Assembly: GCA_002086835.1 (NCBI GenBank)
Contig: MVIG01000030.1
Span: forward strand, 1-64,000
DNA length: 64,000 bases
Direction: 5' to 3'
From: Mycolicibacterium porcinum
GTDB taxonomy: Bacteria; Actinomycetota; Actinomycetes; Mycobacteriales; Mycobacteriaceae
In this document: positions 7,381-20,846 of the stretch, in pieces
Layout: each line of letters begins with the position of its first letter
How positions within the stretch are numbered: the stretch's first letter is position 1
Made by a program: the position numbers and the translations under genes
The notes under the pieces: generated by a model
What the model was told of the DNA's origin: nothing
Database searches by the model: none
What the model saw: the letters and a program-made list of their open reading frames with translations, nothing else

Positions 7381-7585
7381 TGGTCTTGTCCTTTCCCCGC
7401 GGCGCCGCTGGACTGGCCACCTTCGAGCAATGGACAGCGCACTAAGTGCTCGATGGTGTTCGTGCCAAGTATCGCGGTGTAGGGGCCCTGTGACGTGCGA
7501 TTTTCGAAGATCTCGGGAGTCGGACTCAGCGTGGCGATCAGGGTGCGGGGCTATCGGTATGTCTCGAATCTTCCGGGCGAGGACA

Positions 7586-7590
7586 TCACT
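7586..7590. repeat. Target-site duplication TCACT, left copy
   Basis: Five bases TCACT directly precede the left transposon end and are repeated at 20045-20049 directly after the right end. Five-base duplications are the rule for Tn7, Tn402/Tn5053 and Mu-type DDE transposases. Confidence 0.85.
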
Positions 7591-7692
7591 TGTCCGTTCT
7601 CATTGAATCTGGGGCAAGTATTCGACCGTGACCCGAGGCACCCCAGATTGAGTGAGAATTTGGTCCGCGCGTTTTCTCATCGAATCTGGGGT
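7591..7692. repeat. Left transposon end with three transposase-binding-type repeats
   Basis: Three repeats share the core TTCTCA-N2-3-GAATCTGGGG. L1 is 7591-7614 (starts TGTCCGTTCTCATTGAATCT). L2 is 7640-7662, in inverted orientation. L3 is 7671-7692, in direct orientation. The tail of L3 is about 8 bases from the stop of the desaturase gene. Multiple end-binding sites are typical of TnsB/TniA ends. Confidence 0.8.
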
Positions 7693-7700
7693 AATTCGGG

Positions 7701-8792
7701 CTAGTTTTCTTTCCGCATTTTCCGCCGGTCATCTGGGAGTGCGAGCGTGAGAATGGTGCGCAGGGTGTGCCGGTACTGGCGTGTGAGCGGACCGGTTGTG
7801 TAGGGCAGGCCAAAGCGTGCGCATAGAGGTTGAACTTGCCGGGCGATCTGGGCGTAGCGGTTACTCGAAAGGTCGGGGAATAGGTGGTGCTCGATCTGGT
7901 AGCAGAGGTTTCCGCTGAGGAATGCTAATACGGGTCCGGCGTGGAAGTTCGCGGTGCCCAGCATTTGTCGCAGGTACCATTCGGGTTTGGTCTCGTCCTG
8001 TAGGGCGGCGGGCGTGAATTTCTGTGTGCCGTCGGCGAAATGACCACAACAGATCACCACGTAGGCCCAGACGTTGCGCAGCAGGTTGGCGACCGCATTC
8101 GCGGTGAGGGTGCGGCGCCATCGTCGAAGACTCAGCGCGGGAAAGATCAGATAGTCCTTGCCGGCTTGGCGGGTGATCTTGCCGACCAGCGATCTGGTGA
8201 GAGCGGATTTCTCGGCGCGAGTCGCCGCGCTTCGCTGCTGGGATTCCCAGCCCTGCAGTGCGATGCCCCATTCGAACATGATGGCCAGCAGAATGTTTCG
8301 TAGGGGCTGCAGCAGATTGCTCAACCGCCACGGTTGGTCGGGGGTGACCCGCATGATGCCGTATCCGAGGTCGTCGTCCATGCCGATGACGTTGGTGAAC
8401 ATGTGGTGGCGGTAGTTGTGGGCGTAGCGCCATTGCGCGGAGACGCTGGCCATGTCCCATTCCCAGGTACTGGAGTGGATTTCCGGGTCGTTCATCCAGT
8501 CCCATTGACCGTGGCAGATGTTGTGGCCGAGTTCCATGTTCTCGATGCTCTTGGCGGTGGCGAGCGCGGCGGTGCCGAGCGCGCAGCCGGTCTTGGTGCG
8601 GCTGGCGGCGATGATCAGCCGTGCGGTGACGTCCAGGCAGCGCTGAAACATGATGGCGCGCTGGATGTATGCCCTGTCTGAGGCGCCGCGCGAGTTCTCG
8701 ATGTCGCGACGGATGGCTCCTAATGCGTCGCCGAGTGCCTCAAGGTCGGTCTTGCTGAGGTGGGCGTATTCGGCGACGTTGGTGATGGCCAT
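7701..8792 (-). CDS. Membrane fatty-acid desaturase, DesA3-like (transposon cargo)
   Basis: A 363-residue integral-membrane di-iron desaturase that inserts a double bond into an acyl-CoA or lipid-linked chain. Three histidine clusters are visible: HNICH (with GQWDWMNDPEIHSSTW after it), HNYRHH and QIEHH. The sequence resembles mycobacterial DesA3, the stearoyl-CoA delta-9 desaturase. DesA3 itself is longer at its C-terminus; here the protein ends 8 bases from the transposon end repeats. ATG 8792 (MAITNVAEY) matches the family start. A longer open frame upstream is Arg-rich and unlikely. It follows the TetR gene on the same strand by 123 bases, so that repressor probably controls it. Confidence 0.88.
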   Translation of the reverse strand: MAITNVAEYAHLSKTDLEALGDALGAIRRDIENSRGASDRAYIQRAIMFQRCLDVTARLIIAASRTKTGCALGTAALATAKSIENMELGHNICHGQWDWMNDPEIHSSTWEWDMASVSAQWRYAHNYRHHMFTNVIGMDDDLGYGIMRVTPDQPWRLSNLLQPLRNILLAIMFEWGIALQGWESQQRSAATRAEKSALTRSLVGKITRQAGKDYLIFPALSLRRWRRTLTANAVANLLRNVWAYVVICCGHFADGTQKFTPAALQDETKPEWYLRQMLGTANFHAGPVLAFLSGNLCYQIEHHLFPDLSSNRYAQIARQVQPLCARFGLPYTTGPLTRQYRHTLRTILTLALPDDRRKMRKEN

Positions 8793-8915
8793 CGGTGTCT
8801 CACCGAGACTCAGTAGGCGCCGGCGGGGTGCCCTGGCGGCGTGCGGCTGTCGCAGCATGTGGGGTGTTTGGGCGGGTCATTGTGGTCACGTCGGTTTCAG
8901 GGTCGTGTGGGGGGG

Positions 8916-9743
8916 TTATCCGGGTTCGGGTGCGCGCGTGGGCATACCGCCAGGCATGTCGAGTCGGGTGGCCAGTCCGGTAAGCAGAATGTCGAGGCCG
9001 CGGTCGAGTTCGGCCAGGCCGTCGTAGGCGGCCCAGGTCGGGGCGAGGTCGCGGACGTGCGGGAATTCGCCGATCGGCAGCCGGTGCAGCCCGAGCCGCA
9101 TCACGTGGTCGGTTTCCTCGGGGCGTTCGACGATCTCCTGCAATTCGGTGAGCACGTGGCCGTAGAGGAATCCGAACAATGTGCGGTATACGTGCAGTGC
9201 GTCGGGCCCGGTGAAGCCGCATCGGGTCAGCAGGGCGAGGATCTGTTCGAGGTGGCGCAGGATGCCCGGTGGCCGCATGCCGAGCGGTGTCGCCAGGGGG
9301 CGGGTGACCAGCAAGGGCACCACGTTGGGGTGGGCGCGTGCCAGGTTTCGGAAGTCGTGGCCCAGGCGGCGCAAGGCGGCGATCCAGTCCGGTGTTGTGG
9401 TGTCCAGGGAGAGTTGTTCGAAGATCATCTCGACCACCCCGTCGAGCACGGCCGCCTTGTTCGGCACGTGCCGGTAGAGCGCCATCGGATCACGCCCGAG
9501 CGCTTCGCCGAGGCGTCGCATCGACAGCGCGTCGACGCCGTCGCGGTCGATGATGTCCAAGGCACCGGCCAGGACCGCTTCGCGGGTGATCGGCCGGTTC
9601 TGGCCGTTCTCGGTGGCGTCGGCGCTCGGGGCGCTATCTCCCGGACCTGATGGACCCGCTGGTGGTTGGGTCATGGACGAAGCACCACCTTCCGGTTGCG
9701 GCTGCGCTGATGTCTGCTCCGGGGAACCCCGCATGGCTGACAT
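8916..9743 (-). CDS. TetR-family repressor (transposon cargo)
   Basis: A 275-residue regulator. A low-complexity Pro/Ser/Ala-rich lead (about 48 residues) is followed by a helix-turn-helix (ITREAVLAGALDIIDRDG...LSMRRLGEALGRDPMALYRHVPNKAAVLDG) and a TetR_C-type ligand domain. The HTH contains the canonical A/MALYRHVPNK segment. The start could be at 9743, 9734 or 9674, since the N-terminal lead is not conserved. It is transcribed with the desaturase downstream and divergently from the small-protein cargo operon. A GTAGAC-N11-GTCTAC palindrome lies upstream (9825-9847). The ligand is unknown; fatty acyl-CoA sensing would suit a desaturase repressor. Confidence 0.85.
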   Translation of the reverse strand: MSAMRGSPEQTSAQPQPEGGASSMTQPPAGPSGPGDSAPSADATENGQNRPITREAVLAGALDIIDRDGVDALSMRRLGEALGRDPMALYRHVPNKAAVLDGVVEMIFEQLSLDTTTPDWIAALRRLGHDFRNLARAHPNVVPLLVTRPLATPLGMRPPGILRHLEQILALLTRCGFTGPDALHVYRTLFGFLYGHVLTELQEIVERPEETDHVMRLGLHRLPIGEFPHVRDLAPTWAAYDGLAELDRGLDILLTGLATRLDMPGGMPTRAPEPG

Positions 9744-9824
9744 GTCGATCGCGGGCCAGCCGATACGGACGCGTGCGCTCGGTGCGCTCGGTGCACACGC
9801 ATTTCTGCGTTCGACATCTACATC

Positions 9825-9847
9825 GTAGACCTATTCTGTATGTCTAC
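9825..9847. promoter_or_regulatory. Candidate TetR operator GTAGAC-N11-GTCTAC
   Basis: A perfect 6-bp inverted repeat with an 11-base spacer. It sits in the AT-richer gap between the divergent tetR gene (start 9743) and the membrane-protein gene at 9907, so it could govern both cargo operons. Confidence 0.5.
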
Positions 9848-9906
9848 AACGTTGACATTGGGGTGAATGCGGCGTGTACTGGACTTCTACAGATTGAAGT
9901 GTCGCC

Positions 9907-10404
9907 ATGCTCGTCATTGTTGGATTGGTTGTTCTGCTCGTCGCGGTGATCGTGGGGTTCACCGGGGCGCTTCTCAATGCGGGGCCCGCGCACCCATTGA
10001 CGGAGAACTTCGATGTCTTCGGCTATCACGTCACCGGGTCGACGAGCACGCTGTTCCTGTTCGGGATCGTCATCGGCGCGGTCGCGATGCTGGGGTTGAG
10101 TGTGCTGCTGGCCGGCGCGCAGCGCAGCGCGGGACGCGGGCGAGCCGCCCGCCGTGAACTCGACAGGTCACGACGTGAGACCGCGTTTCTGAATCAGGAG
10201 CGCGATCGGCGGCTCGAACACGACCAGGACCACGCCGTCGCAGCCTCGGCGGTGCCCCCGCAGCGCGCCGTCCCCAGCCGCAGCAGAGATGCTCGGTTCG
10301 GCCGGTGGTGGCACGGTGGACAACCGGTGCGCGCCGCCGGAGTCGACACCGCCGGTAGGCCAACCCCGGCCGATACCTCCAGCCCGCGCTCGCGGGGGCG
10401 GTGA
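9907..10404 (+). CDS. Small membrane protein with two helices (cargo)
   Basis: A 165-residue protein. It starts directly with a hydrophobic helix (MLVIVGLVVLLVAVIVGFTG), has a short loop, then a second helix at about residues 48-70. A long Arg/Ala-rich cytoplasmic tail containing a coiled-coil-like stretch follows. No known family is recognised; similar two-helix proteins occur beside stress genes in actinobacteria. It is first in the rightward cargo operon, ahead of a CsbD-like gene. Confidence 0.65.
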   Translation: MLVIVGLVVLLVAVIVGFTGALLNAGPAHPLTENFDVFGYHVTGSTSTLFLFGIVIGAVAMLGLSVLLAGAQRSAGRGRAARRELDRSRRETAFLNQERDRRLEHDQDHAVAASAVPPQRAVPSRSRDARFGRWWHGGQPVRAAGVDTAGRPTPADTSSPRSRGR

Positions 10405-10429
10405 ACACCGAAAACCAAGGAGCACGTAA

Positions 10430-10603
10430 ATGAGCGTCGGTAAGAAGATCGCCCACAAGGCCGAATCCGCCAAGGGCACGGTGAAAAAGCTCTTCGGTCG
10501 CGCCATCGGCAACACCCGCCTGCGTACTGAAGGACGCGCCGATCAGTTCAAGGGCAACACCAAACAGGCCGGCGCCAAGGTCAAAGACGCCTTCAAACAC
10601 TGA
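10430..10603 (+). CDS. CsbD-like stress protein (cargo)
   Basis: A 57-residue, Lys/Ala/Gly-rich protein (MSVGKKIAHKAESAKGTVKK...) with the repeating KG-x-x-K pattern of CsbD-family general-stress proteins (G-N-T-x-L-x-x-E-G-x-x-D-Q-x-K-G-N). CsbD proteins accumulate under general stress in many bacteria; their molecular role is unclear. AAGGAG at 10417-10422 sits 7 bases before the ATG. It lies 25 bases after the previous gene and before a hydrophobic micro-protein. Confidence 0.85.
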   Translation: MSVGKKIAHKAESAKGTVKKLFGRAIGNTRLRTEGRADQFKGNTKQAGAKVKDAFKH

Positions 10604-10654
10604 TCTGAGCAACACCGTGCCCGGACACACCTACCCAGAAACTAGGCAACCGCC

Positions 10655-10834
10655 ATGATCGTCCTCGGAATCATCCTCATCGTTCTGGGGCTCCTGCTTC
10701 CCAGCCTCGTCCCCACGTTCGCGTTCGCCCACATAGTTTTGGTCGTCGGAGTCATCCTGCTGGTCGTCGGCCTGCTCATGATGCTCATGGGACGGATGGG
10801 TCACGCTGTCGGCGGCCGCCGCCACTACTACTGA
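10655..10834 (+). CDS. 59-residue hydrophobic protein, DUF6131-like (cargo)
   Basis: Two tightly packed hydrophobic helices (MIVLGIILIVLGLLL... and HIVLVVGVILLVVGLLMMLM) end in a basic HAVGGRRHYY tail. The layout matches the small mycobacterial proteins grouped as DUF6131; function unknown. A damaged second copy forms the 3' part of the chimera at 11560-11810, down to the same GGRRHYY ending. This shows a local duplication within the transposon cargo. Confidence 0.75.
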   Translation: MIVLGIILIVLGLLLPSLVPTFAFAHIVLVVGVILLVVGLLMMLMGRMGHAVGGRRHYY

Positions 10835-10979
10835 GCGACCACCGTCAACGGCGGACGGCACAATCCCTGGCGGCCCCGCGGACTCCACCGCGCCGGCCAC
10901 CCAGTACCTCACGCCGCCGAGAGCATTCCTTAGCCTCCGGCCACCAAAATTTCACGCTCAACCAACCCAAGGAGCCGAC

Positions 10980-11381
10980 ATGCCCACCAGCAGTATCGTT
11001 TTGATCGTCGTCATCGTCATCGCGGCCATCTTGCTTATCGCCGCAATCGTGTGGGTGGCGCGTAACAAACGCAACGAACATCGTCACGTAGCAGCCGAAG
11101 AGATTCGCGAGGCCGCCAGGGACGAGACGCCGCAGGTTCGGCAGCGCGAGGCACGCGCCGACGAGACCGCCGCCCGGGCCCGCGCCGCTCAGGCTGAATC
11201 CAACGTCAAGGCAGCCCAAGCGTCCGGTCTGCAACAGCAGGCCGTCGCCTACCGCAGCGAGGCAGAGACCTCCCGCCACCAGCTCGACGAGCAGTGGGAC
11301 CGCGCGGACACGATGGATCCGACCTCGCAAACACCCGATATGCCCAGAACTGCCGACCGCAAGGAACACCAAGCCCACTGA
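10980..11381 (+). CDS. Membrane-anchored coiled-coil protein (cargo, copy 1)
   Basis: A 133-residue protein with one N-terminal helix (residues 5-28) and a highly charged cytoplasmic domain rich in Ala, Arg, Glu and Gln, predicted as a long coiled coil, ending in an EQWDRAD segment. AAGGAGCCGAC before the ATG is repeated almost exactly before copy 2 at 11968. Similar single-pass proteins are common in mycobacteria near stress genes; function unknown. Confidence 0.7.
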   Translation: MPTSSIVLIVVIVIAAILLIAAIVWVARNKRNEHRHVAAEEIREAARDETPQVRQREARADETAARARAAQAESNVKAAQASGLQQQAVAYRSEAETSRHQLDEQWDRADTMDPTSQTPDMPRTADRKEHQAH

Positions 11382-11559
11382 CCGTCGCCAGCTCAAACCT
11401 CGCACCCCGCCTGACATCGCCACTCGCGCAACAACGTAACATCGCTGGACCGCAAAATTCACAGCCATCGGCGGTAGCTTGCGTACCCGCAACCCATCTG
11501 CGTGTCATCGCTGAATCGCAGGATTTGGACCGGTTCACGACCAAGACAGGAGCGTCGCC

Positions 11560-11810
11560 ATGACGCCACAACCGAGACGAAAAAACGATCAGAACTCGAC
11601 CGTACCCGCGCGCACGCCGCGGCTTAGGCTGAAACCTAAGGCGCCGCACACCGGATCGTTCTGGGGCTCCTCCTTCCCAGCCTTGCCACCACATTCGCGT
11701 TCGCCCATATTGTCTTGGTCGTCGGCGTCATCCTGCTGGTCGTTGGCCTGCTCATGATGCTGATGGGGCGGACGGGTCACGCCATCGGCGGCCGGCGTCA
11801 CTACTACTGA
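11560..11810 (+). pseudogene. Chimeric remnant: DUF5994-like head fused to hydrophobic-protein tail
   Basis: The first 30 codons (from ATG 11560) match the start of the DUF5994-like genes at 13688 and 15091 (NDQNS-VPARTPRLRLKPKAP). From about 11660 the DNA instead matches the inside of the 59-residue hydrophobic gene at 10655, but one base out of frame. The reading frame therefore stops at 11755-11757 while the matching frame continues to TGA 11808-11810. This is a recombination scar between two cargo genes. A ribosome binding site, GGAGCGTC, identical to that of the DUF5994-like genes is retained. Confidence 0.7.
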
Positions 11811-11967
11811 CCGGTCCGCAACGCTGACCGGGTCGATGCGGGTCGTGGCCGACTGACCCCGGACGCGCAACGACATACCCACTTCGACACTGGTCAGCGA
11901 TGCAATGCCCTCAGCCATACCCCCTCACGCCAACAAATTCATGTTTCAACAATCACAAGGAGCCGAT

Positions 11968-12339
11968 ATGGCTACCAGCAGTATCGTTTTCGTCGCCCTC
12001 GTCGTGTTCGCGACGACCATACCTATCGCTGCCTTCGCGTGGGTGGCGGGCAATAAACGCCAGAAAGATCCCTCTGCCACGCCCGACAACATCCAGCAAT
12101 CCGTCAAAGCGGACCCACCGCAATTTCGGCGGCGCGAGGCGTGGGCTGACGAGGCCGCCGCCCGCAGCACTCCGCATGGCCAGAAGCCGACATCTGGGCG
12201 ACCGCAGTATGGGGCCTGTGTCAACGGGACGGCGTCCGCCGCAACGCGGCGCCGGATCCCGTTGAACAGCTCGACGACCCAGTGGGACCGAGCGGACACG
12301 AGGGATACCGTCCCACAGGCGCCCCATGAGCATGCGTGA
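11968..12339 (+). CDS. Membrane-anchored protein (cargo, diverged copy 2)
   Basis: A second copy of the gene at 10980. It has the same AAGGAGCCGA leader, the same MATSSIV start, one N-terminal helix and a charged domain, and ends near the shared QWDRAD segment. Between about 12160 and 12270 the frame differs from copy 1 and the residues become low-quality (Thr/Pro/Arg-rich), which indicates compensating indels. It is probably decaying. Its end overlaps the start of the ligase gene by 14 bases. Confidence 0.55.
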   Translation: MATSSIVFVALVVFATTIPIAAFAWVAGNKRQKDPSATPDNIQQSVKADPPQFRRREAWADEAAARSTPHGQKPTSGRPQYGACVNGTASAATRRRIPLNSSTTQWDRADTRDTVPQAPHEHA

Positions 12340-13522
12340 ATGCCGATCACAAGAAGCGTCAGGACAATTGACATTCGCCAAGACGCCACGGACGGTCGGC
12401 ATAGAGGAAGAGTTCCACCTTGTCGACCTCACAACCAGGCGGCTGGCAACGCGGGCACCAGAGCTGCTACCGCTGCTGCCTGACGGTTATGTGGCCGAAT
12501 TGCAGAGCTGCGTGGTCGAGACCAACGGCAGTGTGGTCAGCACGCTTCCGGAATTGCGGGCTGATCTGACAGCGCGGCGTCGAGTCCTCGTCGATACCGC
12601 CGCCACACTCGGGTTGGGCGTGGTTGCCGCAGGCGCGGTTCCGCTGTCGGTGCCCAGCGAGATGCGAGTGACCCAGACTTCCCGTTATCAGCAGATGCTT
12701 GCCGACTATCAGCTGTTGGCGCGCGAACAACTGATCTGTGGAACCCAGATCCACGTTGGAATCGACGATCCTGATGAGTCTGTCCTAGTGGCCGGTCGGG
12801 TAGCCGCCTATGTTCCCACTTTGCTTGCGTTGAGCGCGAGTTCGCCGTTCTGGTCCGACGGATCTGACACCGGCTACAGCAGTGTCCGCACATTGGTTTG
12901 GCAGCGATGGCCGACCACTGGATTGGCGCCTCCGGCCACGTCAGCCGCCGAGTACGACGCGTTGATCTCCGATCTGATTGCAACCGGGGTGATCACCGAT
13001 GCGGGGATGTCGTATTTTGACGTCCGCCCCGCCTTGCGCACTCCCACCTTGGAGCTACGCGTGTGTGATAGCTGTCCCCGCGCCGACACCATTGTGCTCA
13101 TCGCGGCGTTGTTCCGCGCGCTCGTCGAACGCGAAATCGAGGGACTACGTGCCGGGGTGCCTGCCGCCATCGTGGTGCCCCCGCTCGGCCGTGCTGCGCT
13201 GTGGCGAGCTGCCCGTTCAGGCCTGGAAGGCAACCTGGTGGACTTGATACATCCGGCGAGTCGCCCCGCGGGCGATGTGGTTACTGATTTGGTCCAGATG
13301 CTCCGTCCGCAGCTGGAGGCATCCCGAGATTGGCAGACGGTCGAGGAGTTGGCACGCAGGGCACTGGCAGAGGGCAGCTCGGCGGCTCGGCAACGTCGCG
13401 CCATGCGCATGCGCAACAGCCTTCTCGACGTCGTAGATCACCTCATCGCTGAGACCGCTGACGTCGCAACGGTGGCCAACGACGCATTGCCAACCCAGCG
13501 TAACGGGTCTGACCGAGGCTGA
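12326..13522 (+). CDS. Carboxylate-amine ligase, YbdK/GCS2 family (cargo)
   Basis: A 398-residue ATP-dependent ligase of the glutamate-cysteine ligase 2 family. It has the family opening T-V-G-I-E-E-E-F-H-L-V-D, the C-G-T-Q-I-H-V-G-I metal/substrate segment, S-S-P-F-W-x-G-x-D-T-G-Y and V-x-L-R-V-x-D. YbdK-type enzymes show weak gamma-glutamylcysteine synthetase activity; true substrates are mostly unknown. Mycobacteria make mycothiol and do not need glutathione, so a different amide bond is likely. Start is ATG 12326 or 12332; both overlap the preceding gene. Confidence 0.88.
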   Translation: MSMRECRSQEASGQLTFAKTPRTVGIEEEFHLVDLTTRRLATRAPELLPLLPDGYVAELQSCVVETNGSVVSTLPELRADLTARRRVLVDTAATLGLGVVAAGAVPLSVPSEMRVTQTSRYQQMLADYQLLAREQLICGTQIHVGIDDPDESVLVAGRVAAYVPTLLALSASSPFWSDGSDTGYSSVRTLVWQRWPTTGLAPPATSAAEYDALISDLIATGVITDAGMSYFDVRPALRTPTLELRVCDSCPRADTIVLIAALFRALVEREIEGLRAGVPAAIVVPPLGRAALWRAARSGLEGNLVDLIHPASRPAGDVVTDLVQMLRPQLEASRDWQTVEELARRALAEGSSAARQRRAMRMRNSLLDVVDHLIAETADVATVANDALPTQRNGSDRG

Positions 13523-13687
13523 GAGTCACCGCCGGCATGTCGAATATGTTTCGCCTGACGCAGCCTGTATTCGGGCCGATCCGCGTAGAATCAGCACTAT
13601 CAGCGGTATTTCGTGCGCACAACAAATTTCGTGTGTCATCGCTGATTTGAAGGGGCCGCGGGACGCGGTCCAGATGGGAGCGTCATT

Positions 13688-14233
13688 GTGACGCCACAGC
13701 AGACACGCAGAAATGATCAGAACTCCATCGTGCCGGCACGTACGCCGCGCCTACGGTTAAAGCCCAAAGCACCCCAAAGCGGGTATGTCGACGGGGCCTG
13801 GTGGCCCCACAGCGATGACCTCCGCTCAGAGCTTCCAGACCTTTTGGCCGTGCTGTCGGTACGCCTGGGCCGCATCGACCGGGTGCTGTATCACCTGAAT
13901 GCATGGGCGGAGGCGCCACGAAAGCTCATCACCGGAGGGCGGACGGTCCGCTTGGATGGGTATCGGCTTCAACCGATCAACACCATTGATGTTCTCGGGC
14001 TCGACGGTGACCGGCTCACGCTCCTGGTGATTCCGCCCCACACCAATGCCAACGACGCCCACCGCACCATGATGACCGCGGCGCAACCTCACAACGCCGC
14101 GACCGTCGACGGATTGCTCACGATCAGCCAGCGAGACCGGGACACACGCAACCAGGCCTCCACTGCTCAAGAACGCTGGGAATCAGAAGGCGGAACTACG
14201 GCTTCCCTACGGCTAGCGCAGCTCCCCGGCTGA
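13688..14233 (+). CDS. DUF5994-like protein (cargo, paralogue 1)
   Basis: A 181-residue soluble protein opening with TPRLRLKPKAP, then GYVDGAWWPHSDDL and LPDLLAVLSVRLGRIDRVLYHL. This is the signature of the actinobacterial DUF5994 family (function unknown, often beside anti-sigma-factor or stress genes). GTG 13688 is preceded by GGGAGCGTC, the leader shared with the two paralogues. It is followed by a strong hairpin (14240-14269). Confidence 0.8.
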   Translation: MTPQQTRRNDQNSIVPARTPRLRLKPKAPQSGYVDGAWWPHSDDLRSELPDLLAVLSVRLGRIDRVLYHLNAWAEAPRKLITGGRTVRLDGYRLQPINTIDVLGLDGDRLTLLVIPPHTNANDAHRTMMTAAQPHNAATVDGLLTISQRDRDTRNQASTAQERWESEGGTTASLRLAQLPG

Positions 14234-14239
14234 CACGAA

Positions 14240-14269
14240 CTTTCCCGCGGCCCGGCACCCGCGGGAAAG
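14240..14269. terminator. Hairpin terminator between convergent cargo genes
   Basis: An 11-bp perfect stem CTTTCCCGCGG / CCGCGGGAAAG with an 8-base loop, 7 bases past the DUF5994-like stop. The AAAG/CTTT ends give a short T-run on both strands, so it may end transcription in both directions. Confidence 0.7.
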
Positions 14270-14293
14270 CGCGCTGGCACTATGTTCGTGCCA

Positions 14294-14497
14294 CTATGAG
14301 CGGTGACGAAATAGCCCGTGCGGCTTCCGCTTCTCATCGCCGGCCACCTCGGTCCAGCCCCCTGCAGGATAGGCCACAGGTTGCATTGTTCCGGCACGGA
14401 CAACCTCCAACGACCCGTCGGCGTGCTTGATGTAGCGGTCACCGAAGCGCGCAAACTCATCAGTGAGGCCGTCGTTGCGGGTTACTTGTACAGTCAT
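14294..14497 (-). CDS. 67-residue hypothetical protein (cargo)
   Basis: A small soluble protein with a recognisable mycobacterial pattern: a sequence FGDRYIKHADGSLEVVR, then an aromatic/Gly segment GGWTEVAGDEKR. I recall close relatives as short conserved hypotheticals in fast-growing mycobacteria, sometimes in several copies. Function unknown. Convergent with the DUF5994-like gene and downstream of its paralogue on the same strand. Confidence 0.65.
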   Translation of the reverse strand: MTVQVTRNDGLTDEFARFGDRYIKHADGSLEVVRAGTMQPVAYPAGGWTEVAGDEKRKPHGLFRHRS

Positions 14498-14557
14498 GGT
14501 TCAAATCCGATCCCTGACGCCATCGTCAGCGTGTTGTTCTTCACAAGCCGTCACCGG

Positions 14558-15091
14558 TTAGGTATTCGGTTGTGCACTGCGTGATTTCGGTATCTCAGAT
14601 TCCCAGCGCTGCTGGGCAATGCTGGCTCGGTCCAAGGTGATTCGAACGCGCGGCTCGATGCCGAGAAGCTGGTCCACACTGGTCTCGTCGCTGGGATGTG
14701 CGGCCCGCATCATCGTCGCGTGCGCGTCGGAGGCGTCCGTGTGCACAGCCACGACCAGCAGATCGAGTCGACGGAATCCCGGTCCTAGCAGGCTGATTGT
14801 TGAGATCGGTTGGCGCTCATCTCCATCCAACCTGACCGGACCGCTACCAGCGTCGAGTTTTCGCGGCGCTGACTGCCAGTCAGACAATCGGTACAGTACC
14901 CGTTCGACATGCCCCAACCTGACGGACAACACCGCTAGAAGGTCAGGAAGTTCAGCACTTAGGTCGTTACCGCGAGGCCACCACGCCCCATCGACAAAGC
15001 CGATACGTGGCGCCTTCGGTTTCAACCGCAATCTCGGAGTACGGGACGGAATTTGCATCCGTTGCGAATTCTCGGCCGCTTGTAGCGTCAT
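14558..15091 (-). CDS. DUF5994-like protein (cargo, paralogue 2)
   Basis: A 177-residue paralogue of the 13688 product, in opposite orientation. It shares TPRLRLKPKAP, GFVDGAWWPRGNDLSAELPD, LLAVLSVRLG and a WESE C-terminal segment. ATG 15091 follows GGGAGCGTC, the same leader as its relatives. A longer frame to 15181 has no similarity. With the fragment at 11560 this makes three DUF5994-like copies within 4 kb, so the family has been amplified inside the transposon. Confidence 0.8.
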   Translation of the reverse strand: MTLQAAENSQRMQIPSRTPRLRLKPKAPRIGFVDGAWWPRGNDLSAELPDLLAVLSVRLGHVERVLYRLSDWQSAPRKLDAGSGPVRLDGDERQPISTISLLGPGFRRLDLLVVAVHTDASDAHATMMRAAHPSDETSVDQLLGIEPRVRITLDRASIAQQRWESEIPKSRSAQPNT

Positions 15092-15213
15092 GTGGACGCT
15101 CCCATCTGTGGTCGAGCCAATCGACCTATTGATCGATGCTCCAAACCCGAATGGGCAAGCTGCATGACCGAACACCGACATGTTTAACGCTACTCGCAGT
15201 CACACAAATTTGC

Positions 15214-15236
15214 GACAGACGAGGCCGGCGTCTGTC
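15214..15236. terminator. Hairpin downstream of tniQ
   Basis: A perfect 8-bp stem GACAGACG / CGTCTGTC with a 7-base loop, about 16 bases past the tniQ stop on the minus strand and followed by an AT-rich run. It is probably the terminator of the transposition operon. Confidence 0.6.
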
Positions 15237-15251
15237 AAGTAGCTGTTGGCG

Positions 15252-16097
15252 TCAGGAGCCGCGGTGTGGTCCGAGCAATCTGGTGATCGGCCCGGCGGGT
15301 CGGTGCATTGCCAGGCGTTGGTCGCATATCCATTGGTCGAGGGCGCCGGTGCTCCCGCAGCGATCGGGGAAATCGGTCTCGATCCGTCGGTGAAGCGCGT
15401 CAAGGAGTTGGCCGCTGTGAGGATGGGTCGTGGCAATGTGGGGCCGATAGTCGGCAAGGATGACCGCCAAGGCGACGTGATCGCTGTAGGCGTCGAGGTA
15501 TTCCTCCACCGTGATTTCTCGAAGCGACAGCACGGGTGTGACGGTGCAGCCTTCACGCCACCAGCAATTCAGGATTCGGCGCGCATCACGCATAGCGAAC
15601 GGAGCGAAATCCTTGTGCTGGTAGGCCATTCGCGCATGCCTGCGTGCTGCTGTGAGCACTGCCGGACGATGTTCGAGCGGTCGTTGATCGCCCCACCGGT
15701 GTGCTGGTGCGCCGATCCATCGGCGATGACGGAAACACACCGTGCGGTGTTCGGGCAGCCAGCAGTAGACCGGTTCATAGATTCCGCGGCGCGCCATACA
15801 CAGTCGGCACCCGGGTCGTGACCTGCGCAGTTGTTCGGCGAAACCATGGCCTCGGGTGAGGCCTTTGAGCCGAATTTCCAGCAGATCAAGAGGGTAACCG
15901 CTGGCAGCTGCGAGCCATTCGGGCCGCGGCTGGTTGCTGACCGCTGTGCCCGACAGATAGGTGTGCAGCACCTTCAGGGGCAGGTGGTTGGCGTGGGCCA
16001 GTCGCATCGTGTAGGAATGCACCGTTTCGGTCTGCACCGGCCACACCCTGCGCGGCAACGCGTGTTGTGGTCCTTGCGGCCATGGTCTGGGATTCAA
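15252..16097 (-). CDS. tniQ: TniQ-family transposon target-selection protein
   Basis: A 281-residue TniQ/TnsD-family protein, which recruits the transposase-ATPase complex to target DNA. The N-terminal segment RRVWPVQTETVHSYTMRLAHANHL is the family start. A zinc-binding set is visible as C97-x2-C100 and C121-x2-H124 (CRLC ... CFRH). At about 280 residues it is a short TniQ without the long DNA-reading C-terminus of TnsD, so sequence-specific attachment-site reading is not expected. It is last in the tnsA-tniA-tniB-tniQ operon, 6 bases after tniB. Confidence 0.9.
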   Translation of the reverse strand: MNPRPWPQGPQHALPRRVWPVQTETVHSYTMRLAHANHLPLKVLHTYLSGTAVSNQPRPEWLAAASGYPLDLLEIRLKGLTRGHGFAEQLRRSRPGCRLCMARRGIYEPVYCWLPEHRTVCFRHRRWIGAPAHRWGDQRPLEHRPAVLTAARRHARMAYQHKDFAPFAMRDARRILNCWWREGCTVTPVLSLREITVEEYLDAYSDHVALAVILADYRPHIATTHPHSGQLLDALHRRIETDFPDRCGSTGALDQWICDQRLAMHRPAGPITRLLGPHRGS

Positions 16098-16103
16098 GCC
16101 GGT

Positions 16104-17138
16104 TCAGCTGGCGGTGCGGGCGGCTGCGGTGTGAGCGGCATAGTCGATCAGCACGGTGTCCATCAGCGCTCGCGAGACCTGTTCGGTGCCATCCAGCATG
16201 GCCTGGATAGCTGCGGCGCGGATCAGATGGGCAAGGCTGCCGATCATGCCGCCGGTGCGGCGGTGCAGGTATCGCGCCTTGGCAACAAGGGATCCCGGTG
16301 GGTGGGAGTGCAGCCGCAAGGTGCCCTCCATCGCTGCCACGAGCTGACGCCATTCTTTAGCATCCGGGAACGCACTGGTGTGGATAACACCACAGCGCCC
16401 GGCAAGCTGGCGTCCGCGGGTGCCGGTGAACAGCCCGGAACGCTCCACGTCGATCCCGGCATACACAAACGTCGCAGGCAGGTGTTCGGTGAAGTATTTG
16501 AGGTGATCAGACAGTTCTTCCCCGGCGCGGGTATCCAGGTTGAGGTTGTGGATCTCGTCGACCACCACGATGTCGGTCCTGGCGTCGATGAGCACTTGGC
16601 ACACCGCGTCGGAGATATCGGTGACGTTCATCCGCGGGTTTAGCATGGGTAAGCCCAGAAACCGGGCGAATTCCATCGCGAGCTTGCGTGGTGAACCTTT
16701 CGGCGGTGCGGTCACATACACCACCGGTATGCGGTTGTCGTCGCCGGGGAACCGTGCCCTGGTACGCAGTTCGTGAAATCTGCCCAGTTGTTTGATCGCG
16801 GTGGTCTTGCCGGTCGCAGCGGCGCCGGAGATGATCAGGCCACGTCGCGCGCCAATCTCGCGCTGATTGAGCAGGGTCAGCAGTCGGCCTTGGTTGGTGA
16901 TCGATTCGATCGCCGATGTCGTGACCACCACCAACTCCGAGTGATGCGCTACGCGGGCCTCGTTGTAACGGGTCCGAGCATCGTCGTCTAACTGCGACCA
17001 CGTCAGATCGTCGAGCAGTTCGAACTCGGGTGCATCGGCCTCAATGAAACGCCGCCAGCCCTCCAACGTGGTGGTGGGCTGGCGGCGATCCTCCAACTGG
17101 TTCACGGCCACTGTTTGCGGCTCGGTCACAGTCGCCAC
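16104..17138 (-). CDS. tniB: TniB-type transposition ATPase
   Basis: A 344-residue AAA+ protein equivalent to TnsC/TniB, which bridges transposase and target selector. Walker A is GAAATGKT (about residues 105-112) and Walker B is IVVVDEIHN (about 190-198). A tRxGRQLAGRC-like arginine segment follows further on. The N-terminus lies within the last 13 bases of tniA, so the two are translationally coupled. Confidence 0.93.
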   Translation of the reverse strand: MATVTEPQTVAVNQLEDRRQPTTTLEGWRRFIEADAPEFELLDDLTWSQLDDDARTRYNEARVAHHSELVVVTTSAIESITNQGRLLTLLNQREIGARRGLIISGAAATGKTTAIKQLGRFHELRTRARFPGDDNRIPVVYVTAPPKGSPRKLAMEFARFLGLPMLNPRMNVTDISDAVCQVLIDARTDIVVVDEIHNLNLDTRAGEELSDHLKYFTEHLPATFVYAGIDVERSGLFTGTRGRQLAGRCGVIHTSAFPDAKEWRQLVAAMEGTLRLHSHPPGSLVAKARYLHRRTGGMIGSLAHLIRAAAIQAMLDGTEQVSRALMDTVLIDYAAHTAAARTAS

Positions 17139-19201
17139 GATTGGGCCTCCTTGCGTGCATCGAACACCGGCAGAGGAATCACCTCGGCCACAACGTCTTC
17201 ACCGTTTGCGTCGTCGGCTGTTTGATCGCTCGGCGACGCACCGTGCTCGGCCGGCGGCCCCGGCACGCCGGGCCAGCCGCGACCGGCGCTAGCAGCACTT
17301 GTCCGCCCAGTCACCCGTCGCTCCGCTTTCGTTCGGCCCTGGGGGCCCGCGGCGGCTCGGTCCATCAGATCCTCGGCAACGGCTGCAATCTCGGCTTCCT
17401 GCGCCTTCTGGATGCCTGTGCGGTTAGCCACCGTGCGCGCGTGACGCCACAGCATCTCGCCGAACGGCACCGGGGCGCTGCGCAGGTGCGTCCACGTCGC
17501 GCCCAGCCAGCCATCGTCGTGGTGATTGCGTATCCAGATTCTCGACACGTCATAGGGGTCGTAATGGACCTCCCACTGTCCGTTGTGGGCATCGACCCCG
17601 GAATGCTGGCGGCGGTAAGGGTTGAGCGCCTTGGCGTCATAAGTACGATGATTGATCCGGATCCCGTAACTGTTGATGGTCCGCCACGCCACCGGCAGTA
17701 GCTCAACGTAATCGTCGGCGCCCAGCGGGACCGGCACATAGCCGGCGACTTCGACCAGCGCAGCGTATTTCTCGTTGGGGGTCAACGCTTTCCCTGGAGT
17801 CACCGGATCCCGCAGACCGTCGTGAGGCCGGTTCTGCCACACCGCGATGATCCACTCGTCCAACAGCGCCTGAAGTTCGATCATCGACCACACCGCATCG
17901 TCCTCGGCGTTCTTCCCGCGCCGTTCCACCGACGACCCCACATACCCGGCAACATACTGCGCGAACAGGGTGCTCACAGACTGCAGCGTCCGTTCTACCT
18001 TCGGTTTGTCGGTCGGGCAGTCAGGATGAGCCGGTTGCAGATTGATCCCGAGAGTGCAGCACGCCTGCCGAAACGTTTGTGACAGATACGCTTTCCCGTG
18101 GTCACACACGACCGTCTCCGGAGTGATTACCGGCCGCGCCGCGGCATCGGCCAGGCGCTGATCAACACTGGTCAAACTGCGGTGCGGCAACACCGACCGC
18201 GACATCCGCAGCGCATCCGCCCATCCCGGACGCATTGGCTCCGGCGTCAACGCCCGCGCTAGCAACAACGACGCATCCACCGCCTTGGTCGTCGGCCGCA
18301 ACACCGCCGCCGGAATCGAACGCGTCGCGTTGTCGACCATCCCGGTCAACTCGACCCGGTCCACCAGACCATCATCCAGAACCACCAGCACATCCAACGG
18401 CGTCGAATCGATCTCCACCATCTCCCCGGGCCGCACCACGGTGACCGACCCGAACGGGCCATCCGGCTGCTTGGACAACGACCGCCGCGTACGCGCCGAC
18501 CCGAACGTATGCCGGCCCTCGGCAAGCCTCTTCACCAGCCGGTAGAACGTCGGCTGAGACGGCATCGCCGGTGCATCCTCGGGTCCATACGCCGCCGCCA
18601 ACGACTTGGCAACTTGCCGCTGCAAGCGCTGCACTGTCCCCGTCGACAGGTTGGTCTCGCCCTCGATTGCGTCACGCACCGCGGCGACCACACGCTCGTC
18701 CACCCGGCCGAACACCTGCCGGCGACGATTGTGTCGCCCATCCACGACGCCCAACAGCCCATCCCGCTCATAGGCGTAACGACGACGCTGCAATGCATTC
18801 CGGCTCACCTCATGGCCAGCAGCACGCAACTCGTCCAGCTTGGCCAACTCCCGTTGGCGCAGAGATCGTCTCGCCGTGTCATATTCCGGGCGGGGTCGAG
18901 AACCCGGAGCGGCCCCGGGCGGCCGGCCGGTCAGGATCTCGACGATATGTCGCTCCCACCAGCGCGCCAGGTCAACCGCTGCTTCCGGAATTCCCGCCAA
19001 CATCTCCTCAGAACACAACGGTGGCCGCGACCCTGACACCAACTCCAACGCAGGGTCAACCAACAACTGCGACACCGGCACCACGATGTGCTCACCGACA
19101 GCGTCGACCAACCGGACCGACCCACCCGACAAGGCCACAACGGTGAAAACACCTGATGACAAACGGATCTCGTCTCCCACGCGGACCACACCCGTTCGCA
19201 C
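17126..19201 (-). CDS. tniA: TniA/TnsB-type DDE transposase
   Basis: A 691-residue Mu/TnsB-family transposase. N-terminal winged-helix DNA-binding regions span about residues 1-230. The RNase-H-fold core has D265 (EIDSTPLD), D367 (VCDHGKAYL) and E403 (KVERTLQ), a D-D-35-E triad with all three acidic residues present. A Mu C-terminal beta-barrel follows, then a tail of about 70 residues rich in Ala/Arg/Pro that may contact TniB. Length is larger than the roughly 560 residues of Tn5053 TniA and close to TnsB (702). It is preceded by tnsA with a 6-base gap. No frameshift is seen, so it should be functional. Confidence 0.95.
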   Translation of the reverse strand: MRTGVVRVGDEIRLSSGVFTVVALSGGSVRLVDAVGEHIVVPVSQLLVDPALELVSGSRPPLCSEEMLAGIPEAAVDLARWWERHIVEILTGRPPGAAPGSRPRPEYDTARRSLRQRELAKLDELRAAGHEVSRNALQRRRYAYERDGLLGVVDGRHNRRRQVFGRVDERVVAAVRDAIEGETNLSTGTVQRLQRQVAKSLAAAYGPEDAPAMPSQPTFYRLVKRLAEGRHTFGSARTRRSLSKQPDGPFGSVTVVRPGEMVEIDSTPLDVLVVLDDGLVDRVELTGMVDNATRSIPAAVLRPTTKAVDASLLLARALTPEPMRPGWADALRMSRSVLPHRSLTSVDQRLADAAARPVITPETVVCDHGKAYLSQTFRQACCTLGINLQPAHPDCPTDKPKVERTLQSVSTLFAQYVAGYVGSSVERRGKNAEDDAVWSMIELQALLDEWIIAVWQNRPHDGLRDPVTPGKALTPNEKYAALVEVAGYVPVPLGADDYVELLPVAWRTINSYGIRINHRTYDAKALNPYRRQHSGVDAHNGQWEVHYDPYDVSRIWIRNHHDDGWLGATWTHLRSAPVPFGEMLWRHARTVANRTGIQKAQEAEIAAVAEDLMDRAAAGPQGRTKAERRVTGRTSAASAGRGWPGVPGPPAEHGASPSDQTADDANGEDVVAEVIPLPVFDARKEAQSWRL

Positions 19202-19207
19202 GCCAGC

Positions 19208-19948
19208 TCACCACCCAGCCCCGAGCCCGATCAGCGTGTCATCGCCAAGCGGCGCATCACGCAAATCGGCTACTAAGCACCGTTTCCAAAGCAGATGAAA
19301 CAGCACCGGCAGCACCACCAGGGGAGTGCCGACGGCCCGTACTCCAGCCATCAAGGGACGGGCTCGGGTGAACACCTCAGTGAGCTGGTCAGCCAGGCCC
19401 ACCCGCAGGACTCGTGGGTGTCGATAACCCGACAACCACCGCAGGTTGGCCCGCAGCACCGGATTGAGTGCGCCGACCCGGCGATAATCCCAGCCCACCA
19501 TCGCGCAGGCCGCCGCAGACCGATCGAACACCTTCTGGCCGCCCACCGAGATTCGCTCGTCCTCACGAACATCAACCACCACGGCAGAGCCATCTCGATG
19601 ACGCACGAAGTAATCCGGCGCGTGTCGAGATCCGTCGGGCCAGTGGAACCAAAACGGTTGCGACAGCACGCCAACCACATCTGGATCGGCATCCAGCGCC
19701 ATCAGCTGATCACGTTCCACCCACGACTCGTGACCGACGTGCGTACCCGTGGTGGCAAACCGCCACAGACCAGGAAAGTTCCGTTGACCGCGAAAAGACG
19801 GGAAATTGCGCACCGGTGCGCAGTCCAGTTCAAACCGGACAGCAGCGCATCGCTCAAGTGAACGGCGCAAACGTCCCTCGCGTGTATCGAACTCCAAGTC
19901 CACAACACCCGCTACAACCGGCCCTGCCGACAACGCCGATGTCAGCAC
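19208..19948 (-). CDS. tnsA: TnsA-like heteromeric transposase endonuclease
   Basis: A 246-residue restriction-fold nuclease that in Tn7 cuts the 5' ends of the element, allowing cut-and-paste movement. Candidate catalytic residues are E78 (SWVERDQL) and D112 (HAPDYFV). The next strand reads VVVDVRED where classical TnsA has Q-x-K, so D126 and R128 replace the usual pair. The FPGLWRFATTGTHVGHESW block matches actinobacterial TnsA-like proteins. GTG 19948 is only about 20 bases inside the innermost right-end repeat. The operon promoter must therefore overlap transposase binding sites, a layout that permits autoregulation. Confidence 0.85.
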   Translation of the reverse strand: MLTSALSAGPVVAGVVDLEFDTREGRLRRSLERCAAVRFELDCAPVRNFPSFRGQRNFPGLWRFATTGTHVGHESWVERDQLMALDADPDVVGVLSQPFWFHWPDGSRHAPDYFVRHRDGSAVVVDVREDERISVGGQKVFDRSAAACAMVGWDYRRVGALNPVLRANLRWLSGYRHPRVLRVGLADQLTEVFTRARPLMAGVRAVGTPLVVLPVLFHLLWKRCLVADLRDAPLGDDTLIGLGAGW

Positions 19949-19969
19949 AAATAAACGTTAAGCCCGATG

Positions 19970-20044
19970 CCCCAGATGCAGTGAGAAAGACACGCGGATA
20001 CCTCAGATTCAATGAGAATGCCCCAAAATCCGTGAGAACGGACA
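19970..20044. repeat. Right transposon end with three transposase-binding-type repeats
   Basis: Three repeats share the same core as the left end, all in one orientation. R3 is 19970-19988 (CCCCAGATGCAGTGAGAAA), R2 is 20000-20019 (CCTCAGATTCAATGAGAA) and R1 is 20021-20044 (ends TGAGAACGGACA). Spacing is tighter than at the left end, where the middle copy is inverted. That asymmetry could define left and right, as in Tn7. Confidence 0.85.
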
Positions 20045-20049
20045 TCACT
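20045..20049. repeat. Target-site duplication TCACT, right copy
   Basis: Identical to 7586-7590. Removing the element and one copy joins the flanks into a continuous sequence ...GACATCACTGGTGAATCC... . Confidence 0.85.
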
Positions 20050-20510: not shown

Positions 20511-20846
20511 GCAGCGACCCCTGGAGTCGCGAGGGCCGATAGAGGCCTTCGGCGCGAGTGCCGCCGTGCGCACCCAAGCCAGGCGACGCGTTGCGGCGGC
20601 TCGCCGGCACCCGCGACGCTTGTGCGGGGGGCGTTCGCGCGCGCGTTCCGCGCCGATGAATGAGATGGATGACAGTTGGGCGCAAGAGGCGCCGGTCGGC
20701 GCACGACCGTGAAGGTATAAGGCGAAGAACGCAACGGCGACAGCCACCGCCCGCAGTCCCGGCGCAGCTTGTCACAGTACCGATAAGCTACATTATGTCA
20801 AGTTGTTGTAGTCTCCTGTCAGACTCCACACCTGGCTGACCCAGCG
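20511..20846. other. Non-coding or decayed stretch
   Basis: No gene is supported. The short frames here are Arg/Ala-rich and without family features. The last 90 bases are AT-richer (around 20765-20815) and may hold a promoter for the broken endonuclease gene. Confidence 0.4.

Follow-up and report, generated by a model that had tools for sequence, protein, structure and literature searches.

Transposons of the Tn5053 family carry a serine resolvase gene and are not known to encode TnsA. Together with Tn402 they are known as 'res site hunters', aiming at a resolution site and sensing res sites occupied by resolvase, probably through the bound recombinase. Insertion sequences (IS) of the IS1202 family, such as ISAjo2, target dif or pdif on the XerC side with a TnsB-like transposase and a 5-bp duplication, inserting 5 bp from the XerC arm, and contact with XerC has been suggested by the authors (PMC10132070). 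Among Tn7-like transposons, Tn6022 has a target selector, TnsF, derived from tyrosine recombinases (PMC10293859), and the Actinobacteria-dominated clade 2 delineated in 2021 combines TnsA/B/C and TniQ with subterminal repeats of ~20 bp, no member having been characterized experimentally according to that account (PMC8649781). Another paper of 2021 reported a relative in Mycobacterium abscessus prophages whose inverted repeats are imperfect and 25 bp long and which has a 5-bp duplication (PMC8092298). How targets are chosen is the central question for Tn7-like elements. Here, we scrutinized a 64,000-nucleotide stretch of the Mycolicibacterium porcinum genome (assembly GCA_002086835.1, contig MVIG01000030.1, positions 1 to 64,000), hereafter the window, which contains a Tn7-like transposon of 12,454 bp (7591..20044, operon on the minus strand) that, by host and gene content, probably belongs to clade 2. 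We propose that its family takes the Xer dimer-resolution site, dif, as its landmark.

The element resembles each of these systems only in part. Tn5053/Tn402 elements aim at res, whereas the element in the window has TnsA and would aim at dif. IS1202-family members are 1.5-kb IS with a single transposase that insert in one orientation, unlike the window element with its four tns/tni genes and cargo, whose relatives occur in both orientations at gaps of 168 to 1886 bp from the site. TnsF is encoded by Tn6022 itself and aims at comM, whereas the family of the window is proposed to use host Xer proteins; no TnsF-like gene was found among the open reading frames (ORFs) of the element that were scanned. 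For clade 2, the accessible text of PMC8649781 names tRNA-type safe sites and the targets of CRISPR-associated transposons (CAST) rather than dif, and describes resolvases that are almost exclusively tyrosine ones and not universal; the scanned ORFs of the window element include no resolvase. No report of a Tn7-like element targeting dif was found in the literature searched, which comprised titles and the beginnings of abstracts, with subscription papers largely outside. The word dif is absent from the main texts of PMC8649781, PMC10293859, and PMC11406308, and, in the accessible text of papers containing both 'Tn7-like' and 'dif', the two are used in separate contexts. Provisionally, then, the kind of transposon is known and the dif target is what is new.

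The chromosomal dif of M. porcinum, AGTACCGATAAGCTACATTATGTCAAGT (20776..20803, plus strand), lies outside the element, 731 bp from its right end, with the element on the XerC side. Sites were sought with the actinobacterial dif pattern given in PMC3025954, and the naming of XerC and XerD arms follows the convention published in Table 8 of PMC10132070. The only other match to the pattern in the host genome (C15, two mismatches) has no dif arms. This nearness, which a previous sequence-only reading of the window did not see, is typical of the family. Across closed genomes, 17 of 19 family copies were no farther from the point opposite dnaA than 8% of the chromosome length, and 11 of the 19 were within 2 kb of dif, compared with 0.013 expected. 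Such clustering near the terminus, together with flanks near dif that mostly differ between species, might reflect a terminus zone that merely tolerates random insertions, with survivors kept there. However, all 11 copies were within 0.9 kb of dif and all but one on one side, which tolerance over hundreds of kb would not yield. IS256-type transposases in the same closed genomes were evenly spread among the matches listed, with 25 of 141 in the 8% zone and, for chromosomal copies in genomes of known dif, 2 of 123 within 2 kb of the site. The same side was also preferred at dif-like sites on plasmids, and we regard mere tolerance as improbable. Family copies occur on both strands relative to replication, and no orientation bias in that respect is claimed.

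To score sites, a 28-bp dif matrix was built from 25 sites. Values were 42 to 52 bits for dif beside elements and 21.6 to 38.3 bits for six secondary dif-like sites. The best scores in background intervals of 2.4 kb had a 99th percentile of 3.8, intervals with a site of at least 25 being left out, and only one site scoring 12 to 28 occurred in 4.9 million strand-bases. Since the matrix was trained on sites from element loci, it is the background scan and the independent pattern searches that carry weight. Across all insertion and junction records, 35 of 56 were within 2 kb of a site, 29 of them beside dif and 6 beside a secondary dif-like site, and 34 of these 35 were on the XerC side (p 2e-9) in either element orientation. 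The median gap was 365 bp (range 168 to 1886), with 32 of 35 at or below 900 bp. The end nearer dif was the right one in 20 records and the left one in 12, with 3 unassigned, and gaps were shorter when the left end was proximal (medians 220 vs 425.5 bp, p 0.007).

These records grew from a first set of 40 insertions, 24 with a site within 2 kb and 16 without, one of which (pJCM15296) was later resolved as positive. Further positives were the second site of genome G102, G318, plasmid pP4-4a, and seven junctions at contig edges from five draft genomes, the latter recovered in a dif search of 19 genomes. Three prophages and a further copy in each of G152, G332, and G087 were added as negatives, giving 21. 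Element contigs without flanks (including L004, L014, L022, L023, and L136), metagenome-assembled fragments with less than 500 bp of flank (L008, L010), contig edges with dif and no element terminus (L208, L211, L222), and duplicates of one insertion across two collections were dropped. Two further genomes were dropped: G101 (C66/M. algericus), with dif on the contig and the right end not found, and G394, with fragments some kb from dif lacking ends. No family terminus was found beside the chromosomal dif of G288, G214, or G150 in the stretches fetched, and their copies were counted as negative, as was a copy on an M. intracellulare plasmid whose site, 621 bp away on the XerC side, scores a weak 4.7 bits.

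Several observations weigh against dif as the landmark. No dif-like site accompanied 21 of the 56 records, several having only one flank in view; these include both copies in G152, two of three in G332, the second copy in G087, and three M. abscessus prophage insertions. The seven contig-edge positives were ascertained through dif, and without them the count is 28 of 49. The closest relative of the window element (G296) is on the XerD side. Among loci whose TniA is 49 to 50% identical, four of seven had no dif in view and three had dif 1.6 to 6 kb from tniA. No dif match was found in 20-kb stretches around relatives in six genomes outside Mycobacterium, nor around G202 within it, and the remaining nonmycobacterial loci also lacked a match except for Kribbella (L028). 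The 21 records without a site point to leaky targeting, unrecognized plasmid or phage sites, rearrangement after insertion, or a flank lying out of view. They could also be taken, together with the membership of actinobacterial Tn7-like elements in a known clade (PMC8649781), to mean that the window holds an ordinary Tn7-like insertion that is near dif by coincidence. That explanation is contradicted by the family-wide dif statistics, and we find it scarcely credible.

Known plasmids carry two of the six secondary dif-like sites, at 270 bp from the element in pJCM15296 and at 660 bp in pP4-4a. The pJCM15296 element spans 26.2 kb with the target-site duplication GTTGA, its left end facing the plasmid site (21.6 bits). 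A third case, G102, has 171 kb bounded by two element copies, copy 1 being flanked by CTATC on the right and TCTCG on the left, and copy 2 by TCTCG and CTATC. This layout (X-E-Y-plasmid-Y-E-X) is what a cointegrate would show, as would recombination of a plasmid copy with a chromosomal one. Comparison with plasmids covered three of nine stretches of the 171-kb segment; one matched mycobacterial type VII secretion plasmids over 70 to 93% of its length at 80 to 86% identity, and the other two had partial matches (22% and 30% at best). On the plasmid side, a dif-like site (30.7 bits) is 168 bp from the element, and on the chromosome side dif is 208 bp from the element's outer end, both with the element on the XerC side. 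G102 may thus bridge the chromosomal and plasmid homes of the family, its plasmid-like 171-kb segment appearing joined to the chromosome between two copies. A tentative extension, which we put at slightly below an even chance, is that one landmark, the Xer dimer-resolution site, would serve both halves of the life cycle, chromosomal dif as a safe home and plasmid dif-like sites as a vehicle to new hosts, a single adaptor reading host XerC/XerD on DNA in place of Tn7's TnsD and TnsE.

A sister lineage with 40 to 45% TniA identity comprised nine copies in Mycobacterium among the matches listed. In eight of the nine, a distance of 39 to 50 bp on the XerD side separated dif or a dif-like site from the first TGTCC tip of the right end, while the ninth (G169) ended at a contig edge with no flank in view. 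Among the eight is a second copy in G277, which is far from the terminus; its dif-like site, a secondary one scoring 31.7 bits, is 50 bp away. Both ends and a matching duplication were found in three of the eight (L141, L142, L143). Kribbella L028, with a TniA sharing 64% identity with that of the window, has a similar XerD-side position at 51 bp, and a contig edge in G040 has a similar end 47 bp from a dif-like site; a 45% relative in another genus (G471) had no dif match in 20 kb. Two modes, one dispersed on the XerC side and one fixed on the XerD side, therefore both exist. In a third group (TniA 32 to 33%; L159, L160, L176, L177, L179, L180), left out of the counts because its ends were not delimited, dif was upstream in six of nine loci fetched, ~0.5 to 8 kb from tniA. 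Group D (TniA 30 to 36%; G171, G016, G039, G251, G011, G347) was intended as a control and was rejected as such, since it clusters near dnaA: 8 of 11 copies are just before that gene (offset 0.94 to 0.99, from rounded genome lengths), as if using an origin-proximal attachment site.

The landmark might instead be a companion of dif, such as FtsK arrest, a termination structure, or a neighboring conserved sequence, and the variable gap (168 to 1886 bp) does suggest a zone rather than a point. Nevertheless, plasmid dif-like sites have other surroundings and the same geometry, and the sister lineage holds to within 39 to 50 bp of the 28-mer, which makes a companion unlikely. We are fairly confident that the window copy is a functional-looking Tn7-like transposon of a family for which the Xer site, as chromosomal dif or plasmid dif-like site, is the landmark, with TniQ, directly or via XerC/XerD, probably starting TniB loading on the XerC side. 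In the proposed mechanism, TnsA and TniA (TnsB) would cut and join, TniB (TnsC) would act as the ATPase, and TniQ as the adaptor that most likely starts the loading, either on its own or through dif-bound XerC/XerD. Insertion would then occur at a variable distance, mostly 170 to 900 bp, in either orientation and leaving dif intact. Differences in the length of the TniB stretch, presumably a filament, would make gaps vary while keeping them on one side in both orientations. By analogy with the sensing of resolvase by Tn5053 'res hunters', Xer recombinases at dif may recruit TniQ/TniB.

If true, this would be a further case of transposons sensing recombinase-bound DNA, after the res hunters and, as proposed, the IS1202-family IS, and would account for the same element reaching chromosomes and plasmids across many mycobacteria. 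It would also give a clade described as experimentally uncharacterized a simple testable target of 28 bp, and a dif-directed element may serve as a site-directed insertion tool for Actinobacteria.

The sequence-only reading had inferred a mobilized Tn7-like element in a mycobacterial genome, and its relatives support this. TniA at 69% identity or more was found in at least 43 of 396 Mycobacterium genomes, its own included, this sample being part of a larger group with at most two places scored per genome. The nearest copy, in G296, matches the window element at 98.65% identity along its entire length but lies at another site, with the duplication TCGAC, and G344 has an 11,608-bp version flanked by ACCAC. 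A sister element of ~10,347 bp shares 80% DNA identity with the window over 3.98 kb, its copies being 99.79 to 100% identical to one another; one TniA bit score, 1388.9, is common to at least 15 genomes carrying this 10.35-kb element. Where both flanks of its copies were in view, the target-site duplications mostly differed. In some assemblies the element is a stand-alone contig, as a collapsed repeat would give. Mobility is thus supported, as far as genome comparison can indicate it, by nearly identical copies that differ in site and in 5-bp duplication. Related insertions with different boundaries, named beforehand as evidence to the contrary, were looked for and not encountered. The suggested search of mycobacterial genomes yielded other insertions and no clean empty site for that of the window: collinearity with G021 holds for the right, dif-containing flank but not for the left one. 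Flanks were also compared in search of a common attachment gene, and most differed.

Two further observations concern individual relatives. In G087, another element of the family is inserted ~50 bp from the site used in the window and 730 bp from dif, its left flank being 91% identical to the window (7535-7590 vs L120:10225). Prophage relatives in M. abscessus were located at L147:13155-21935 (prophiGD15-1), L190:9155-17607 (prophiGD20-1), and L146:7605-17331 (prophiGD05-1). The prophiGD20-1 transposon, whose exact ends and 8,452-bp length we re-derived, shares the ends TGTCCGTTCTCA with the window element, has the 5-bp duplication ACTGT and a TniA 63% identical to that of the window, but sits in a phage HNH gene with no dif-like site within 1.2 kb. 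Its loss from induced phage has been described as imprecise excision (PMC8092298). According to the same paper, two of these relatives share an HNH gene, at a distance of 25 bp from each other, which points to a different kind of target site in phages.

The ends of the window element show the TGT...ACA tips, 5-bp duplication, and end-repeat arrays of Tn7-like transposons, and copies elsewhere have identical boundaries. The size of 12.45 kb, the perfect 12-bp inverted termini (TGTCCGTTCTCA at 7591..7602 on the plus strand; 20033..20044 on the minus strand), and the exact TCACT duplication (7586..7590 and 20045..20049) were all confirmed as first read. No further exact copy of the terminus was found in the window or in the 102-contig genome. 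End repeats are indeed present on each side as 20-bp sites of the transposase-site type; they number three per end including the terminal one, not three further ones as had been counted. These are L1 (7597..7616, plus), L2 (7639..7658, minus, the inverted middle site), and L3 (7674..7693, plus) at the left end and R1 (20019..20038), R2 (19999..20018), and R3 (19968..19987), all minus, at the right. Relatives show these sites at the same positions, with all six in place (right end 7+, 27+, 58+; left end 7+, 49-, 84+) in 6 of 23 distinct related elements scanned and partial agreement in others. Of the related elements for which both flanks were in view, most have an exact 5-bp duplication of their own, with mismatched ones in M. 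rhodesiae, M. icosiumassiliensis, and G350. Because relatives repeat the site positions and mostly have their own exact duplications, a chance origin of the end structure is excluded. A 10-bp match at both junctions, GGACATCACT, was rejected as a feature, being the duplication plus a 5-bp coincidence with the terminus that is absent from other copies.

The operon tnsA-tniA-tniB-tniQ is uninterrupted, as originally read, with all four genes open and overlapping or 6 bp apart on the minus strand. tnsA (19208..19948) encodes a TnsA-like endonuclease (NCBIfam NF033179, 284.7 bits vs a cut-off of 110; no Pfam match) with invariant acidic residues such as E74, E78, D112, and D126 among 12 aligned sequences. 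tniA (17126..19201) encodes a 691-amino acid DDE transposase that scored above the Pfam cut-off for Mu-transpos_C and matched TnsB chains, its rve score of 21.2 bits being under the Pfam cut-off of 32.6. tniB (16104..17138) encodes an AAA+ ATPase (Pfam TniB, 62 bits) matching ShTnsC. A residue check verified the predicted catalytic residues of TniA (D265, D367, E403) and the Walker A and B motifs of TniB (GAAATGKT, IVVVDE). tniQ (15252..16097) encodes a short TniQ-family protein of 281 amino acids, the TniQ/TnsD-type component of a Tn7-like transposon; in the Foldseek search alone it had no match under E 0.001. Judged by these genes and ends, the window copy looks functional and may be active. 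In a group at 50% identity, TniA has one in-frame TGA in each of G013, G195, G002, G079, and G141, which may reflect a conserved frameshift or an effect of the start site.

Nothing clear resembling a second TniQ was found among the element ORFs scanned, no TnsD or TnsE family among the 10 ORFs scanned (other short ORFs being outside the scan), and no Cas family among ORFs scanned, short ORFs being partly outside; the element is thus not classed as a CRISPR-associated transposon. The cargo had been read as neither resistance nor CRISPR, which holds for the ORFs scanned, where no resistance, CRISPR, or clear defense family was found (one weak PADLOC match, 17.3 bits). It encodes a fatty acid (acyl-CoA) desaturase (7701..8858, minus; Pfam) and a TetR-family regulator (8916..9743, minus), followed by duplicated small membrane-protein-like ORFs (10980-11381 and 11905-12339, plus; repeats D1, D2, D4, and D7) and a glutamate-cysteine ligase of family 2 (12326..13522, plus; Pfam GCS2, 182.6 bits, and NCBIfam). 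Family scans also assigned the TetR regulator and two DUF5994 proteins (13688..14233, plus; 14558..15181, minus). Much of this cargo, including the desaturase, is matched at 84.7% DNA identity by an M. branderi plasmid (NZ_AP022607; L145:8001-14274), with no tns genes in the 22 kb shown. The small membrane-protein-like ORFs lie in a ~1-kb unit that is tandemly duplicated at 10679-12327, with repeated blocks 75 to 89% identical.

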